From NCBI GenBank assembly GCA_027603945.1, contig JADIIU010000137.1:1-33187 (forward strand): a stretch of DNA of 33,187 nt, given 5' to 3'. Every line of letters begins with the position of its first letter. The first letter of the stretch is position 1. A program made the position numbers and the translations under genes. Shown in pieces: positions 7,064 through 20,579 of the stretch. This DNA is from Terramyces sp. JEL0728. Its lineage: Eukaryota; Chytridiomycota; Chytridiomycetes; Rhizophydiales; Terramycetaceae. Under the pieces are notes generated by a model. The model made no database searches and was not told the DNA's origin. It saw only the letters and a program-made list of their open reading frames with translations.

Positions 7064-8759
7064 ATGAGACCAAGAAATACCTGCGTTCCATGCACGAAAA
7101 AAGTAAATCTTACTAATAGATAGAAACAAAAAGTAGTGAAATTCTAATCCAGTGCGATCAAGCAAAACCAAAATGCTCTAGATGTGTAAGTGCTAAAATC
7201 GATTGTTCATACGACAGCTTCCGACAGCTGCCAACAATAAAATCCCATGTAGAAAAACAGTTGGAAGCCAGACTATTGAAATTGGAAGCAGTCTTGGCCG
7301 CTGGTACGTCAAACTCACTTCCATTTGAAATTGTGGAACACATACCAAAAGCAGAAAACACACCTAGGGTAACGGAACTGAATCCAAATATCAATAATGC
7401 GAGATTGATTCAGTTGGTAGTGGAGGACGTCTCTCGATATTCGTTTATTGATCAAGGATATATGAAGGGGTTGCTCAACAATAGTCAGTTTTTACAATTT
7501 GTATTTTCAGGACATGGGTGTTTTTTGAATAATACAGATATAGGGAGTATGGAAGATCGTATTGCACTGTGCAATCGATATCTTTCCAGCTGTACCCCTT
7601 TAATTCCGAACGCAATTTCAGATTCGTCAATGGCAAACATCCTGGGTCTGACTCAGCTCTCATTTTTATATTTCAGTAATTGATCTTTTATCTAGGAATG
7701 ACTAAGCCCGCGGAAGCGTTTGCTTATTTTAATGCGTCGCTTTCAATGGCAAAGAGTTTGGCAATTAACAGCGAAGTAGGTATCCAACTACTTACTGATT
7801 CTGAATATGAAAAAGAGAATATAAGGGCTGTTTGGTGGCTCATGTATTCCTTTGATACGTTTTTCATATTTCAAAACAAATCTAATATCAAGGACGAAGA
7901 CAATGGGATATTTCTACCTGGATGCTCAGCGGATGCAAACCCAATCAACCAAAAGACTCATTTGAGTCTCCAAATAATGTCCAGCACAGAATGGTTCACT
8001 CCAAGCTTGCCAAATTTGTCCATTCACGCTTCAAAAGTGCTCTTGATGAGATTATTTGGAAAGTCGCTTAAATTCAATTACATGTATCAGTTTCACAACC
8101 AGAAAATTGATCCGCTGTATATAATGGCAACACTAGAAGGCTCATTGCAGATTTGGTGGAACAATTTGCCTCCAATATTTCTATCACATATCGAGTATTT
8201 GACAAACCCTGGGTCGTTTACTGTTACAGAGCCTGAAATTACCTGGTCTGTCTTTGATACAATACTGCAATTCTATCATGTTCAAATTATGGTATATAAT
8301 CCGATAATGCTGTCACAAATTGTGGAAAGCCCGCAGGAAGCCATCAATTCCCATTGTTTTAACCAATCCCTGCTGGTTGCTCATCATAATGCCAGATTAC
8401 TTAACGAGTACTTGAACAGCAACAGCAGGATGGTATATGCACACTCCATTATTTGTCTATACATTTTTCATACTGCGATCCCTCTAATTTGCGCCAGAAA
8501 AATGAATCTGGCTCCTTCCGAGATTGCGAAAGCCGAAGAATCCCTTGCGATTTACTCCCAAACGCTTGCAATAGCAATAAAGGCGTTCTACCGCGACCCG
8601 ATACTGAAAGAAACGCTGGATTATTTAATTTCTTTGGAAGAGCCAAGTGCAATTGCGCTCTACTACACAAAATTCATTTCCCTCGATACAAAAAAACGAA
8701 GAACACTCACCCAATTCGCAGACAATTTCATAGGGAACCAGTTGTTTCCAGAATTTTAA
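7064..8759 (+). CDS. Zn2Cys6 transcription factor 1 of the tandem trio
   Basis: 544 aa with introns at 7103..7123 (21 nt), 7133..7152 (20 nt) and 7676..7695 (20 nt). Splicing builds a perfect binuclear cluster across two introns and a 9-nt exon: CVPCTKK|KQK|CDQAKPKCSRCVSAKIDC (C-x2-C-x6-C-x6-C-x2-C-x6-C). A short leucine-rich linker follows (LEARLLKLEAVLAAG), then a fungal-type middle domain with RAVWWLMYSFDTFF and the trio-specific IMSSTEWFTPSLPN. Such proteins bind CGG-type DNA half-sites; the targets are unknown. Unlike factors 2 and 3 it has no Ser/Pro/Gln-rich tail. The start was chosen because it aligns with MRKNNTC of the other two. The stop overlaps AATAAA (8758..8763). Ctf4 lies 49 bp upstream. 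Confidence 0.85.
7124..7132 (+). other. 9-nt microexon (KQK) in Zn2Cys6 factor 1
   Basis: The nine bases AAACAAAAA lie between a 21-nt and a 20-nt intron. They encode KQK, exactly the three residues needed to give the C-x6-C spacing of the zinc cluster. Both paralogues have KQK at the same place (RKKQKC), so the exon is supported by comparison within the window. Skipping it would leave the frame open but destroy the zinc-cluster spacing. Confidence 0.75.
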
Positions 8760-10826: not shown

Positions 10827-12690
10827 ATGAGGAAAAATAACACCTGTGATTCATGCATTCGCAAAGTAAATACAGCTAACCCAGAAGCAAAAGTGCGATC
10901 GAGCAAGGCCAAAATGCAGCGCTTGCATTGCCTCTGAATTGGTGTGCCATTACAGCGAAAAGAGGCCATCTTTCAAGCATCCAGTAACTGAAAAGGAAAA
11001 GTTATTAGAAAGAAGATTAATTCAGCTAGAGGCGGCGATATCTGCTGCGCGAAACAACTCACTTGGTCTACTGCCACAAAATTCGTTCTATGCTGCTCAG
11101 GTACCAACAGGAGATTCCCCACTTGGACTACCTCCTTCGCCAAATGTAGAAAGGAACGATTTGTTTGAATTGGCAATTCGCAGCCTACACCATTTGATAT
11201 TTATTCATGCAGATTTTATAAGATCTTGGTCCGATATATCTCCAATGCTAAAATTCGCTTTGCAAGCCCATGGTGCTTTACTAGCAGATGCCGAAGCTCT
11301 GAAGGATTCGGACCGTAACACGCTTGCTACCTATTTCTTGGATAAGTCCACCGCACACTTTACAAAAGCCGTTGCTTCACCCACAGTTGCATGCGTAATG
11401 GCCATGCTGATGAACTCGCTTTCCTATATCCGTCTAGATAGAGGTGCTTTTAGATTTAATTGTAGCAAACGAGGGCTTCCAGTACTTTAACTTTACTGTT
11501 TCGATAGCTAAAAATCTCGGAATCAATTCTGAATTAAAACTGCTCGCCCTTGCCGGTACCGAAACTGAAAGAGAATACCTTCGCTCTATTTGGTGGTGGA
11601 TATACAAGTGGGACAGATTTTTGATATACAAGAACAAGCACAATCTCTGCGATAAAGATTGTAACATTAGCTTGCCTGGAAGCTCAATGAATGCAGAGGA
11701 TGTCGACAAACAAGCGGTGCTCGGGATGGAAATCATGGCGATGGACGAATGGTTCACTCCTGGTTTACCAAACCAAACGTTGCCTGCTTACAGAGTACTC
11801 CTTTGGAGAATCATGGGTAAGGTATTGCAATTCTCTTATTTGTATCAGAAACAAGAGTCTCACAATCCGTTGTATATCATGTCTACTTTGGACAGTGCAA
11901 TGCAAGTTTGGAAATCAAATCTGCCTGATTATTTGTCGTTCCACTTGTCGCTAATTTATCAAGATCAGCCTGTTCAGAATCCCCACGAGACTTGGGTAGT
12001 GCTAGATACATTTATAACGTACAACTATGTCCGCGTCCTGCTGTTTAGCCATCTCATTATGAGCCGGATTATAGAGGATAAAGACAAAGTGGTAAAAAGC
12101 TATATATTCCAACAATCTCTCAACACTGCCATTGAAAATGCAAAAATACTTGCGTTTTTGCTCAGACATGATGCCAACTTTGAATATGGCACGGGAATAC
12201 TAGGATTCTTTGCCTTTTACACTTCATTCCCATTGCTAATTGGTAAATTGCTGAATCTCCCTGAACAGGAAAAGATTTTTGTAAACGCAGCCCTAGAAAC
12301 CCACCTGTCGTTCATAAAGGTAGCCGATTTCTTATTTAGCATCACGCCCAAATATTCCAGCGGGTTCCCCCATTTGCGGATGCTCTTGAATATCTAATGG
12401 CCATCACTGATCCATTTAAAGTGATATTTGACTTTGTGCATATTCACACACTTGGGCAAGATCCTACGATGGAATATACAAGTCCGTTCCCTATGCCTGA
12501 AATGTACGCTAGTCCAACTACTTTGGAAAGCATGCTCTCTCCAGCAACAAACACTTTGGAAAGCATGTTGTCTCCCCCCAATTCTACCATCTTCCAAGAA
12601 ATCGCCAGTGAATTTGCCGAACACAAGATCCAAGACCCTGTCAACTCAAGCTCTCACTATCCTATCAATCCTATTTTTAAAATCGAATAA
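10827..12690 (+). CDS. Zn2Cys6 transcription factor 3 of the tandem trio
   Basis: 600 aa with introns at 10866..10884 (19 nt), 11444..11465 (22 nt) and 12320..12339 (20 nt). The cluster is CDSCIRK|KQKC..CSACIASELVC, split by an intron at the same codon position as the first intron of factor 1. The middle domain has SIWWWIYKWDRFLIY and IMAMDEWFTPGLPN. The C-terminus (FDFVHIHTLGQDPTMEYTSPF..) matches factor 2 and carries a short internal repeat, TLESMLSP, twice. The third intron is supported because its removal restores FADALEYLMAITDP, which aligns with factor 2 EVLDYLMQISNP. The stop overlaps AATAAA (12686..12691). The DNA target is unknown. Confidence 0.85.
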
Positions 12691-17190: not shown

Positions 17191-18247
17191 TTATTGAGAC
17201 AAGAAAGCATGAAACTCGACGATTTGTCCCAGAATACTAGTCCTACCATCAAAATCATTTACTTTAATGTTTCTACCAGCTGCTCAACAGGCATTTCCTT
17301 GTACTTGTACTTTAATTCAGTTGATTTCGGTTTATAATCGGTTTCAAAGTAAATTGAGGAAGTGAGTATAACCACAGGTGCAATCTTTGGAAAGTTTGGT
17401 CCAACCTATGTTAATCTTCTGTACCTATTATCAATGCATTCAGATACCTAATTGTAAGCGCATCTCAATACCTATAGATTAGCCTGATCCTACATGTATA
17501 TTAACGACAGATGATGCCAACACCTGGTTATTTATCGGCATATGGATAAAAAAAGAGACAAAGGATTCATCATACTCCAACAGATACTCCTTGAATACGG
17601 CCACCAATTGCTTAATAAATTCCTTTTTTTGGATAGTATTCTGATTCTTTTTCTTTACAAATTCATTAACTTGAGACAAGTAATCAAATATTGAGCTTTG
17701 GTTGTATTTTACCGGTTGTTTAGATCTGCATTCAATTTGTATTTCTGGGTCAATTGTAAAGTTGAAGATGAGGTTTTCATCAATTTGTTTGCTTCCTGGT
17801 ATTATTTGTAATGTACCTTTGTTATAACAGCTGTACCTTTAGGTTAGGGATGATGACCTAAAATAAGAGCTGATTAACCTAATTTCAACATCATTTACCT
17901 TCATAAGTAGTGTACGGTACAGATATATTAACTTTGATTCCTTCATCACTCTTGAAATATGCAACTTGCTTCTTTTCCAGTACATTCAATTCAAAATTGA
18001 TCCGTTCAATCCCCAACTCTTTCAATTCCTTGATTTCCTTGTTATTAAATCCGTTCTTTATCTCTTGCACAATCTCATTGATCGGCAACTCTAAATTTAT
18101 CCTGAATGGTAAGATGTAATCATTTGTTGACTCCAAGTAGTAAAATTCAAATTGTTTTTCTAGCTGGATAAACGAAAGTTGCTGCAAATCTTCATTTGGG
18201 CCAAAACTATTCTTTTTAACATCAAAGTGGTTCTTTAACACCTGCAT
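17191..18247 (-). CDS. BABAM2: BABAM2/BRE-like subunit with two intron arrays
   Basis: 281 aa after removing a 103-nt interruption (17796..17898), an 88-nt interruption (17406..17493) and a 20-nt intron (17243..17262). The resemblance to BRE/BABAM2 is strongest in KKEFIKQLVAVFKEYLLEYD, VVNIH|VGPNFPKIAPVVIL (the family's ..FLVHIDLP.FFP..QPTL.F stretch, with the array exactly inside it) and the final VEQLVETLKTSILGQIVEF. The middle LPFRINLELPINEI.. ERINFEL also fits. BABAM2 is a scaffold of the BRISC and BRCA1-A K63-deubiquitinase complexes. The protein starts near human residue 100, so the first UEV-like domain is absent or not recognised. TAA overlaps AATAAA (17190..17195, minus strand). The start codon is 23 bp from that of the divergent DCAF5-like gene. 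The family call is by pattern only. Confidence 0.62.
17406..17493 (-). other. Tandem array of four ultrashort intron units (88 nt)
   Basis: Read on the minus strand, the interval divides with no bases left over into four GT..AG units: 17472..17493 (22 nt), 17448..17471 (24), 17425..17447 (23) and 17406..17424 (19). Each ends in a TAG: CTATAG, AATTAG, AATAG, ACATAG. Units 1 and 2 each bring an in-frame stop, units 3 and 4 each shift the frame, and 3+4 together bring a stop. Only removal of all four joins VVNIH to VGPNFPKIAP. Confidence 0.7.
17796..17898 (-). other. Tandem array of five ultrashort intron units (103 nt)
   Basis: On the minus strand the interval splits exactly into five GT..AG units: 17879..17898 (20 nt), 17858..17878 (21), 17837..17857 (21), 17817..17836 (20) and 17796..17816 (21). 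The four internal junctions are all AG|GT. Several units carry TAAY just before the acceptor (CTAACCTAAAG, ATAACAAAG, AATACCAG). Removing all five joins PYTTYE to GSKQIDENLIF in frame. Unit 5 alone is a multiple of three with no stop, so it could be retained as seven residues. Confidence 0.7.
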
Positions 18248-18270
18248 CCAGATTACTTTTTTTCCTGTAA
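18248..18270. promoter_or_regulatory. 23-bp divergent promoter between BABAM2-like and DCAF5-like starts
   Basis: Only 23 bp separate the two start codons, reading outward to both sides. The stretch holds a T-run and no TATA box. The core promoters and 5' leaders of the two genes must therefore overlap each other, or lie inside the opposite coding region, unless one annotated start is wrong. Confidence 0.55.
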
Positions 18271-19582
18271 ATGGAAATCACCGAGTTTAATTTTGATAAG
18301 CTGATGAAGAGGAAATGGTACAGCAAAACAATTAAAGATCATTCTGGGTGTGTTAATGCGTTGAATTACAAGAGCGGATTGCTTGCCACTGGTGGAGATG
18401 ACTTGGATGTGCTGGTTTATAAAATGAATGATTTGGACTGCGAATTGATCTTTAGGGGAAAAGGTAGTCTGCTTTAACATGGGTTTATATAGCAAATTAA
18501 ATTAGGTTAGTGCTTCTTATCTATAGGTATGCAACAGCTTAATCCTATTCAGGTACAAACACTCTGATTCTAGGCAAGAAATTGAATTAACTAAGGCCAC
18601 TCGTCCAATATATTTTCAATTGACTTTGCAAACGATTATGTACTCAGCTGCGGCAATGATGGCTTGGTTATTATTTACAATATAGAAACGGGGAAATCGG
18701 TAAAGAAACAGGCTCACTTGGATGCCTGCTTGAAGCTATCTTGTAGGGATAGCATATACTTGACTGCCGGCCAAGATTACACGATTAAACTCTGGGACGT
18801 TAGAACAAGGAAACCGCTGCATACAATTGCAAAACCAGGTAGAATCGGCTAATTGGAGGAAAGAGACAGAATTCCGTCCAGTTGAATCCAGTTAATCAAA
18901 ATCTGTTTATTTCAAGCGACGATAAAGGAGGTGTATATTTGTATGATATAAGAAATCTGAATGATTCGATTAGATTCAATACTAGACTACATACAAAAAC
19001 AAAATTCTCTTACCCTGGCGATGTAACTTGCGCTGTATGGAATGAATATGGTACTCAAATAGGAGCAAATATACAGAAATTCTATCCACTAATATACAAT
19101 ATCTATGACTCTCAGCCTATGCTAATGTGCTACGATGACAATTTCAGTTCAACTTGTACAATTAAAACCGGCAGCTTCCTAAAAGACTATTTCTTTATGG
19201 GAAGCGATGATTACAAATGCTATGGATTTAAACTATCCAACCCACTTGGCTCTGAGTATATGGTGGATGGAAAAGTAGTACCAATAGTCAAACCAACCAC
19301 AATTTTAAACGGTCATTATTCTATAGTCAATTCTTGCATAAATATTAATGACATGTATGTTGCAACTGCAGGTGTGGAAAGAGTAGTACGAGTGTTTGCG
19401 CCTTTTGATACGAGGGATAAATATGAAATGGATGACGATGAGTTTACGGTCAGATACTTCAAGTCGATGGTGACTATTTTATAACGTAGATTGATAAGGA
19501 ATTGGCAGAGTTGGAAGATAGTAGGTGGCAAAAGCTACTTGATAGTGATTCTGACAGCGACAGTTATATTAGCATTGATTAA
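18271..19582 (+). CDS. DCAF5: DCAF5/WDR22-like WD40 protein (CRL4 substrate receptor type)
   Basis: 379 aa after a 132-nt array (18464..18595) and introns 18839..18858 and 19470..19489 (20 nt each). WD40 blades run through the protein: DHSGCVNALNYKSGLLATGG, HSSNIFSIDFANDYVLSCGN, YLTAGQDYTIKLWDVR, NLFISSDDKGGVYLYDIRN, GDVTCAVWNEYGTQ, YFFMGSDDYKCYGF, LNGHYSIVNSCINI, TAGVERVVRVFAPF. The order and motifs (GCVNAL.., HSSNIF.., GHYSIVN.., GVER) match DCAF5. Family members present substrates to the CUL4-DDB1 ubiquitin ligase. The acidic tail DSDSDSDSYISID ends 25 bp from the convergent GPCR stop. The neighbouring BABAM2-like gene is also in the ubiquitin field. Confidence 0.75.
18464..18595 (+). other. 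Tandem array of six ultrashort intron units (132 nt)
   Basis: Removal of the whole interval joins LIFRGK to GHSSNIFSIDF, the expected DCAF5 sequence. It divides into 18464..18482 (19 nt, ends GG), 18483..18505 (23), 18506..18526 (21), 18527..18552 (26), 18553..18573 (21) and 18574..18595 (22, starts GC). Three of the five junctions are AG|GT; the others are GG|GT and AG|GC. Branch-like TAAY or TGAT motifs precede most acceptors (TTAACATGG, TTAACTAAG). The first two units could instead be one 42-nt unit. Confidence 0.65.
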
Positions 19583-19607: not shown

Positions 19608-20579
19608 TTAAAAATAATCAGAGACTCGAGTGGGAAGAGATTGAGATTCAACCTCACTCTTCTCGCTAGATTCTGTTGCAAAACTGATTGGGAGGTACCT
19701 GCTAATCTCTTTCTGATATTTGGGATTGGTATATATGATAATCAGTGGTGAACACAAACTGCCATCCAACACCAAAATAAAGTCGCCAACAAGCTCAAGT
19801 ACTTGCGGTGCATTTTGAATTGTAACGTATCTGTACGCGATAACAATAAAGATGGGAATGTACAGCAGACAGAAAGCGCCAGTGATGGTCAGACATCTAA
19901 TCAGCAATCTATTCTGGAATTCTTCAGTTTTGCTAATTATCCCTTGCGTTATTTTCGTGCTAAACATTGTCATCTTGTGTATCCGGTGTTTGACTTGCAA
20001 GTAAATCAATGTGTAAAGCACAACTACAATCAACAGGACGAAAATAAAATAAGCGAACGCGAGTATTCCAAAGATGGTTTCGTTCAACGGCGCAGTTGGG
20101 TACCAACACACAGTTCCATTTTCAACGGATTCAAATAGCCTTGGCGAAGTCAATTGACCAAAACTGACCATTACCAATATTCCTGCAAAGAACAGCAAAA
20201 TTGAATTGAATACCCAAGGTTTAAGTTCGTCTCTTTTTACCAAGACCATGTACCTATCTAAAGCTAGAATCAAGTGCCCTGCTAGCCCCATGCCACCAGT
20301 CATCAATTGTCCAATTGCTGATACTTGGCACAACAAAACTTGTTCCTGCAGCGTACTGTGCAATGCCAATTTAGTGACGGATACAGTTACATTTGTCAAC
20401 ATCCACAGAAAGAAACAAGTGATTAGCACAAAGATTGCAGAGTCGAATGTGGTGCGGCGGAGGGAGCGGGTGGTGATGAGTATGTAGAATAGGAATGCGT
20501 TTAGGAGCAGGCCGAGGCACTCTGGTATCAATGATAGGTATGTTGCTATTAGCGATTCATTTTTAGTTGCAGTCAACAT
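19608..20579 (-). CDS. Class-A (rhodopsin-like) seven-transmembrane receptor
   Basis: 323 aa, no intron. Seven hydrophobic segments are clear. Class-A hallmarks: Asn in TM1 (LLLNAFLFYIL), Cys at the start of TM3 (LLCQVSAIG) paired with Cys in loop 2 (NGTVCWYP), DRY at the end of TM3 (LILALDRYMVLV), Pro in TM6 (FCLLYIPIF) and SPLIIIYTNPKY in place of NPxxY, followed by a basic helix 8 (QKEISRYLP). TM7 has no lysine, so a retinal opsin is unlikely. The ligand is unknown. The frame is open upstream to a GTG codon, but the first ATG (20579) is used; it is followed by an NES glycosylation site. The stop overlaps AATAAA (19604..19609, minus strand). Confidence 0.75.
   Translation of the reverse strand: MLTATKNESLIATYLSLIPECLGLLLNAFLFYILITTRSLRRTTFDSAIFVLITCFFLWMLTNVTVSVTKLALHSTLQEQVLLCQVSAIGQLMTGGMGLAGHLILALDRYMVLVKRDELKPWVFNSILLFFAGILVMVSFGQLTSPRLFESVENGTVCWYPTAPLNETIFGILAFAYFIFVLLIVVVLYTLIYLQVKHRIHKMTMFSTKITQGIISKTEEFQNRLLIRCLTITGAFCLLYIPIFIVIAYRYVTIQNAPQVLELVGDFILVLDGSLCSPLIIIYTNPKYQKEISRYLPISFATESSEKSEVESQSLPTRVSDYF

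Follow-up and report, generated by a model that had tools for sequence, protein, structure and literature searches.

In Drosophila, large introns contain ratcheting points and are removed in pieces, in order from the 5′ end (accessible part of PMC2773006). In fungi, interruptions made of more than one intron, the stwintrons, are cleared by consecutive standard splicing reactions, and these structures are nested, with an inner intron splitting the donor, the branch site or the acceptor of an outer one (accessible parts of PMC7138796 and PMC12403724). AGGT tandem duplications, including a 24-bp unit of fission yeast, give tandem copies bounded by AGGT, by which an exonic segment becomes an intron (accessible part of PMC4974935). 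Ultra-short introns are known from ciliates (about 25 nt; PMC5014332) and dicyemids (median 27 nt; PMC6543705), as given in the accessible parts of these reports.

The window analysed here, a stretch of 33,187 nt from the chytrid Terramyces sp. JEL0728, contains a DCAF5-like gene of which the first interruption reads as six very short introns set head to tail, and the divergent neighbour of this gene contains two more such arrays. The arrays share with the Drosophila system the acceptor joined directly to a donor (AG|GT), by which the exon again ends next to a donor once one unit has been removed; they differ from the ratcheting described in the accessible part of PMC2773006 in that the units are of about 21 nt, number up to eight and are in some cases tandem copies, and in that stepwise use is here a proposal. 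The very large intron typical of recursive splicing was not found, the window arrays being 88, 103 and 132 nt long and the largest decoded run having eight units. Clearance by consecutive standard reactions, as in the stwintrons of PMC7138796 and PMC12403724 (accessible parts), would be a further likeness, whereas the Terramyces units are complete and lie side by side, up to eight in number, with no inner intron interrupting a splice element of an outer one. Tandem copies bounded by AGGT are shared with the duplications of PMC4974935, but the unit duplicated in Terramyces is already a complete intron with its branch site and not the exonic segment described in the accessible part of that paper. 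The ciliate and dicyemid introns are similar to the Terramyces units in size, and end-to-end arrays are not described in the accessible parts of PMC5014332 and PMC6543705. No end-to-end array of ultra-short spliceosomal introns was found in the open-licence literature; most subscription papers lay outside this search, so the negative is weak evidence of novelty. The arrays join two open questions, the multiplication of introns and the evolution of recursive splicing, and provide nature's own test case for the smallest spliceosomal cycle and for successive rounds at one junction inside about 150 nt; the genomes of close relatives of this fungus (Boothiomyces) have been sequenced.

Arrays of the DCAF5-like gene and its divergent neighbour

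The preliminary description had divided the 132-nt interruption of the DCAF5-like gene into six units, and both the division and the junctions were found to be correct on recomputation (Table 1). The tiling cost of this array was 1.5, owing to one GG and one GC, and none of 4000 dinucleotide shuffles equalled it. With the 132 nt taken out the frame is open over 379 aa, and its product matches HDV01_001440, an annotated protein of Terramyces sp. JEL0728, with 100% identity. Human DCAF5 (8tl6_B) aligns across the array junction with an E value of 1.6e-33 and a one-residue gap beside the junction, and the alignment to the Boothiomyces JEL0838 protein P0002 is gapless at this point. Another annotated relative, P0003, retains 13 residues at the array site, and P0002 retains 7 at the next intron; the 13 retained residues suggest that the orthologous site in P0003 may be an intron of at least 39 nt. 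A search of the window against Rfam gave no match at the gathering threshold.

Table 1. Coordinates of genes, introns and intron units in the window.
Feature	Position	Strand	Size	Remarks
DCAF5-like gene	18271–19582	+	379 aa	exons 18271–18463, 18596–18838, 18859–19469, 19490–19582
DCAF5-like intron 1	18464–18595	+	19+23+21+26+21+22 = 132 nt	junctions GG|GT, AG|GT, AG|GT, AG|GT, AG|GC
Unit 1	18464–18482	+	19 nt	ends in GG, not AG; branch site TTTAAC, 4.68
Unit 2	18483–18505	+	23 nt	weak donor GTTTAT; branch site ATTAAA, 2.11, at threshold
Unit 3	18506–18526	+	21 nt	branch site TCTTAT, 2.29
Unit 4	18527–18552	+	26 nt	longest; fails branch-site test at normal distance
Unit 5	18553–18573	+	21 nt	branch site TCTGAT, 3.35
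Unit 6	18574–18595	+	22 nt	GC donor; branch site ATTAAC, 4.66
BRE (BABAM2)-like gene	17259–18247	-	265 aa	divergent to DCAF5-like gene
BRE-like intron 1	17796–17898	-	20+21+21+20+21 = 103 nt	five units; every junction AG|GT
BRE-like intron 2	17406–17493	-	22+24+23+19 = 88 nt	four units; every junction AG|GT
7-transmembrane receptor gene	19611–20579	-		
Predicted protein with cysteine cluster	7064–8756	+		
Predicted protein with cysteine cluster	10827–12687	+		

The donors of units 2 and 3 scored low, and in unit 4 a branch-like CTTAAT, recognised by eye, lies 7 nt upstream of the AG. Unit 5 occurs once in the genome, even with up to two mismatches allowed. The six units stand as units of sequence, and probably not all six work as separate units, given the GG end of unit 1. 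Because this unit has no AG, units 1 and 2 (or unit 1 and a later one) would probably leave together, as about 42 nt, unless the GG is used.

The start codons of the DCAF5-like and BRE-like genes are only 23 nt apart. The claim that all other introns were of 19–22 nt had overlooked the two minus-strand arrays of the BRE-like gene, which are the cleaner ones: both tile at a cost of 0, a value reached by 0/4000 shuffles for each. The residues flanking the 88-nt array (VVNIH|VGPNF) are identical in the Boothiomyces protein P0012, in which the 103-nt array is likewise closed, to YEG-KQI. Unit 5 of the 103-nt array could be read in frame as an exon (TLQIIPG), and this candidate was rejected; the unit was taken as intron because it is absent from the orthologue P0012 and from the model P0011, and the Pfam BRE score was found to be 32.2 bits without it as against 30.3 bits with it. 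In the three arrays of the window together, 12 of the 15 units passed the branch-site test described below.

Ordinary introns and the genome-wide census

The ordinary introns were characterised with a custom-written gene finder in a 233-kb sample made of the window and the first 10 kb of contigs 1–20. A sharp peak of length at 19–22 nt was present prior to the training of any splice-site model, when 66 of 168 calls were introns of 18–26 nt and many of the longer calls were false. Gene finding with a flat prior gave 257 introns, 197 of them of 19–24 nt, and many of the long calls that were inspected consisted of short introns and missed short exons. With the trained finder, 296 of 298 clean single introns were of 19–22 nt, a figure that inherits the bias of the finder. 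Their donors were GT in 294 and GC in four, and in 275 of the 298 a YTRAY branch site ended 2–3 nt before the AG. The threshold of the branch-site test was such that 90% of these introns passed, as did 21.5% of the same introns with shuffled interiors. Three long calls, of 132, 145 and 153 nt, remained; besides the DCAF5-like array, these were resolved into one mis-parsed intron of 73 nt and one false call. The 73-nt intron, parsed by eye at L010 2977–3636 (contig C9), is a rare long one outside any array, in a gene that we take to be RPL17-like, and its existence implies that the Terramyces spliceosome can remove longer introns in one step. An array-aware finder run on 200 kb outside the window gave 277 single introns and two doublets. 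It was also observed that COX1 (G000 C205:10911–13851) is split into four pieces and contains TAG codons in frame, reflecting mitochondrial introns and, probably, TAG read as sense.

A whole-genome search for triples of AG|GTA junctions spaced one unit apart gave 61 matches, which fall at 36 separate places on 32 contigs. The same triple at two other spacings of equal width gave three and one matches, and an AGGCA triple at unit spacing gave three, one of them inside an array. Read backwards, the pattern matched 26 times at unit spacing, and 15 and 21 times when the two alternative spacings were used; this control measures something else that repeats, and so the spacing and motif controls were relied on. 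At 35 of the 36 places a unit with a branch site was present, and the remaining place, on C104, looks like a coding repeat. As the pattern recovers only one of the three window arrays, the 35 places are a lower bound. Among the distinct units taken from the matches regardless of branch site, 63 of 85 passed the branch-site test, as against 15% after shuffling; thus the features of a U2-type unit, namely GT, a YTRAY-like branch site at a fixed distance and AG, are present in 63/85 units genome-wide and in 12/15 in the window. The 66 units from adjacent pairs that are unlike each other passed at 76%, indicating that the branch motif persists where the rest has diverged. A relaxed search with bare AGGT gave 252 matches, fewer than the 970 of its backwards control, and no count of arrays was drawn from it. 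Bare AGGT chains of at least three junctions were found three times in the 233-kb sample, each time in the window, and five shuffles gave 0 to 3; chains of four and five junctions were absent from all five shuffles. The census confirms that tandem intron arrays recur across the Terramyces genome.

Anatomy, copy number and exact removal of the arrays

For the anatomy of the arrays, 20 non-overlapping loci of 30 fetched were decoded along with one further stretch of contig C128 and the window; one copy of the C37/C56 pair was dropped and the DCAF5-like array was set by hand to six units. Of 19 target loci, 15 were resolved into arrays in a coding context, and decoding of the other four (L023, L038, L043 and L049) yielded no array flanked by coding exons. 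The resulting 23 arrays of 3–8 units contain 111 units and 88 junctions, of which 83 are AG|GT, four AG|GC and one GG|GT, the last being that of the DCAF5-like array itself. The acceptor is thus joined directly to the donor at 87 of 88 junctions overall and at 4 of 5 in the DCAF5-like array. A proteasome alpha-6-like gene has a four-unit array with three identical units, and a VPS34-like gene has an array of seven. In the HOOK-like gene of C128 there are three arrays, with seven, three and eight units; the eight-unit one includes five identical units, and the gene divergent to this HOOK-like gene has an eight-unit array as well. Non-last units passed the branch-site test about as often as last units (0.90 versus 0.91; MWU 0.75) and were no weaker, and the donor medians of non-first and first units were 0.71 and 1.43, a difference that was not significant (MWU 0.33). 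The set is biased in that the finder had learnt from normal splice sites, and it includes recent identical copies, in which splice sites persist without selection. Compared with 56 introns found without a splice model, array units were longer (MWU 1.3e-9) and had a greater branch-to-AG distance (2.0e-6), which may come in part from the spacing of the pattern and would not be predicted if the arrays were simple runs of ordinary introns.

Adjacent units are in some cases copies of each other. Nine of 61 adjacent pairs were identical and 19 of 61 were at least 0.8 alike, a level reached by 0.85% of random pairs of single introns; such pairs occurred at 12 of the 36 places, one of them the coding repeat on C104. 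Adjacent near-identical copies bounded by AGGT, as expected from tandem duplication, are therefore found genome-wide, and were not found in the three window arrays. In these, similarity between units did not exceed chance (best pairs 0.52–0.62, 95% chance level 0.71–0.74), so an origin by duplication is not visible in them, and the arrays may be either old or of another origin. A change in copy number was found between L035 (C37) and L046 (C56), whose 2985 aligned bases agree at 98.7% and whose arrays differ by one unit of 21 nt. Five further gaps between the two all lie in stretches that the finder leaves non-coding. The two copies are either alleles or the result of a recent duplication.

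Conserved proteins support the exact removal of the arrays. In the PSMA6 product (four units), 147 residues align to a solved chain with zero gaps, and for USP7 (four units) and VPS34 (seven units) the alignment is gapless at the array junction. The Pfam domain HOOK_N (53.8 bits) covers two array junctions. Exact removal of the BRE-like and DCAF5-like arrays also fits the relatives, less strictly than that of the PSMA6, USP7 and VPS34 arrays. A four-unit array was also decoded in a Tfb1-like gene (L022), but the 3′ end of this array is unconfirmed by relatives, because the annotated Tfb1 proteins of two Boothiomyces are missing 11 and 21 residues immediately past its junction. The annotated Boothiomyces proteins P0002, P0003, P0013 and P0014 were observed to differ from the Terramyces models by 7–21 residues at sites of ultra-short introns. 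These differences look like annotation errors; at array sites the annotated proteins of related species carry little weight as evidence, and protein models that retain or drop pieces there are a warning to annotators.

The arrays were found to lie near the starts of genes and near other arrays. The median distance to the gene start was 235 nt for 15 arrays and 481.5 nt for 212 single introns (p 0.0025). A divergent upstream neighbour was present for 17 of 25 arrays of at least three units, as against 38 of 100 single introns near gene starts (p 0.012), in a comparison where arrays that share a gene or belong to duplicate copies are not independent. The 55 kb around the targets contained eight further arrays of at least two units, where 0.55 were expected from the rate in the 200 kb. 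Both genes of a divergent pair often carry arrays, close to the two gene starts (L027, L032, L051, L052 and window 17406–18595).

Proposed growth and removal of the arrays

We consider it probable that these arrays are “intron minisatellites” that have grown by duplication of whole introns and are spliced mostly unit by unit. The 132-nt interruption of the DCAF5-like gene would then be one member of a genome-wide class in which introns of about 21 nt stand head to tail, separated by exons of zero length. Such arrays would grow when a whole intron is duplicated in tandem and shrink when one is lost, and their removal would take repeated cycles of ordinary two-step splicing, one unit in each and in no fixed order, with damaged junctions occasionally skipped in longer steps. 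Whichever unit or run of units is removed, the exon ends that face the remainder are unchanged, so that every order of removal gives the same mRNA. Any unit can thus go first with the product unchanged and no order is needed, and extra copies would be nearly neutral since the mRNA is the same. A tandem duplicate of a whole intron is automatically a legal substrate for splicing, by which the number of introns at a site can change as in a minisatellite while the protein is untouched. The build of the arrays, their recurrence, the branch sites of most units, the gain or loss of whole units and the need for complete removal to keep the protein frame are seen directly; removal unit by unit, the lack of order and the near-neutrality of extra copies are what we infer from the sequence. 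The array reading of the preliminary description is supported by the cleaner arrays of the neighbouring gene, by the genome-wide set with its equal unit length and branch sites in most units, by exact tandem copies of whole introns and by the one-unit difference between near-identical gene copies. Points against this reading include the 73-nt intron outside the arrays, the missing AG of DCAF5-like unit 1 and the displaced branch site of unit 4, as well as the unlike units of the window arrays, the four loci not decoded as arrays, the high backwards controls and the greater length and branch-to-AG distance of array units.

Alternatively, each array might leave as one intron of 60–180 nt, cut only at its outermost donor and acceptor, with the inner sites as leftovers of tandem duplication: the GG end of unit 1 would then be irrelevant, and a 73-nt intron outside the arrays is indeed present in this genome. 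Precedents are found in fission yeast, in which the tandem 24-bp exonic segment containing AGGT is removed across four or two duplicates (accessible part of PMC4974935), and in Lipomyces starkeyi and Xylariales, whose complex introns can be removed in one reaction (accessible parts of PMC7138796 and PMC12403724). However, inner sites free to drift should have eroded, and they are about as strong as the outer ones; inner branch sites persist in units that are unlike each other (76% versus 15% shuffled); and single introns are tightly sized, with 19–22 nt in 296 of 298, subject to the inherited bias of the finder. Since one-step removal would leave the inner sites open to decay, removal unit by unit is the likeliest reading, and we regard one-step removal as unlikely.

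Two further explanations were weighed. Repeated insertion of a mobile, introner-like intron into an existing AG|GT would re-make AG|GT every time, and the units of the window arrays are unlike each other, as such insertion would allow. A search of the whole genome for three array units, with up to two mismatches, found no dispersed copies; their places were five in C128, three in C37 and C56 together and one in the window, each unit being confined to its own array or a near-identical copy of it, and exact copies adjoin each other. Insertion in place of duplication is thus considered very improbable. Even less credence is given to a chance spacing of AG|GT within ordinary long introns or to an artefact of assembly. 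The bare AGGT chains of the 233-kb sample, which were not commoner than in shuffles, and the high backwards controls (26 versus 61 matches, and 970 versus 252 for bare AGGT) would fit such an explanation, but it is opposed by the 0/4000 shuffles for each of the three window introns, by the spacing and motif controls and the branch sites, and by conserved proteins that align exactly across the arrays.

A wider joint reading, put forward tentatively, is that a spliceosome tuned to lengths of about 20 nt would let long interruptions persist only as stacks of a whole number of units, with a copy number that varies between gene copies, with up to eight recursive rounds, in any order, at a single exon junction, and with the stacks concentrated toward the 5′ ends of genes that form divergent pairs.

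Elsewhere in the window, the minus-strand gene that lies just beyond the DCAF5-like gene was found to encode a rhodopsin-family receptor (PF00001, 43.1 bits), here in a chytrid, and the two plus-strand predicted proteins of Table 1 each start with a Zn2Cys6-like cysteine cluster, as recognised by eye.
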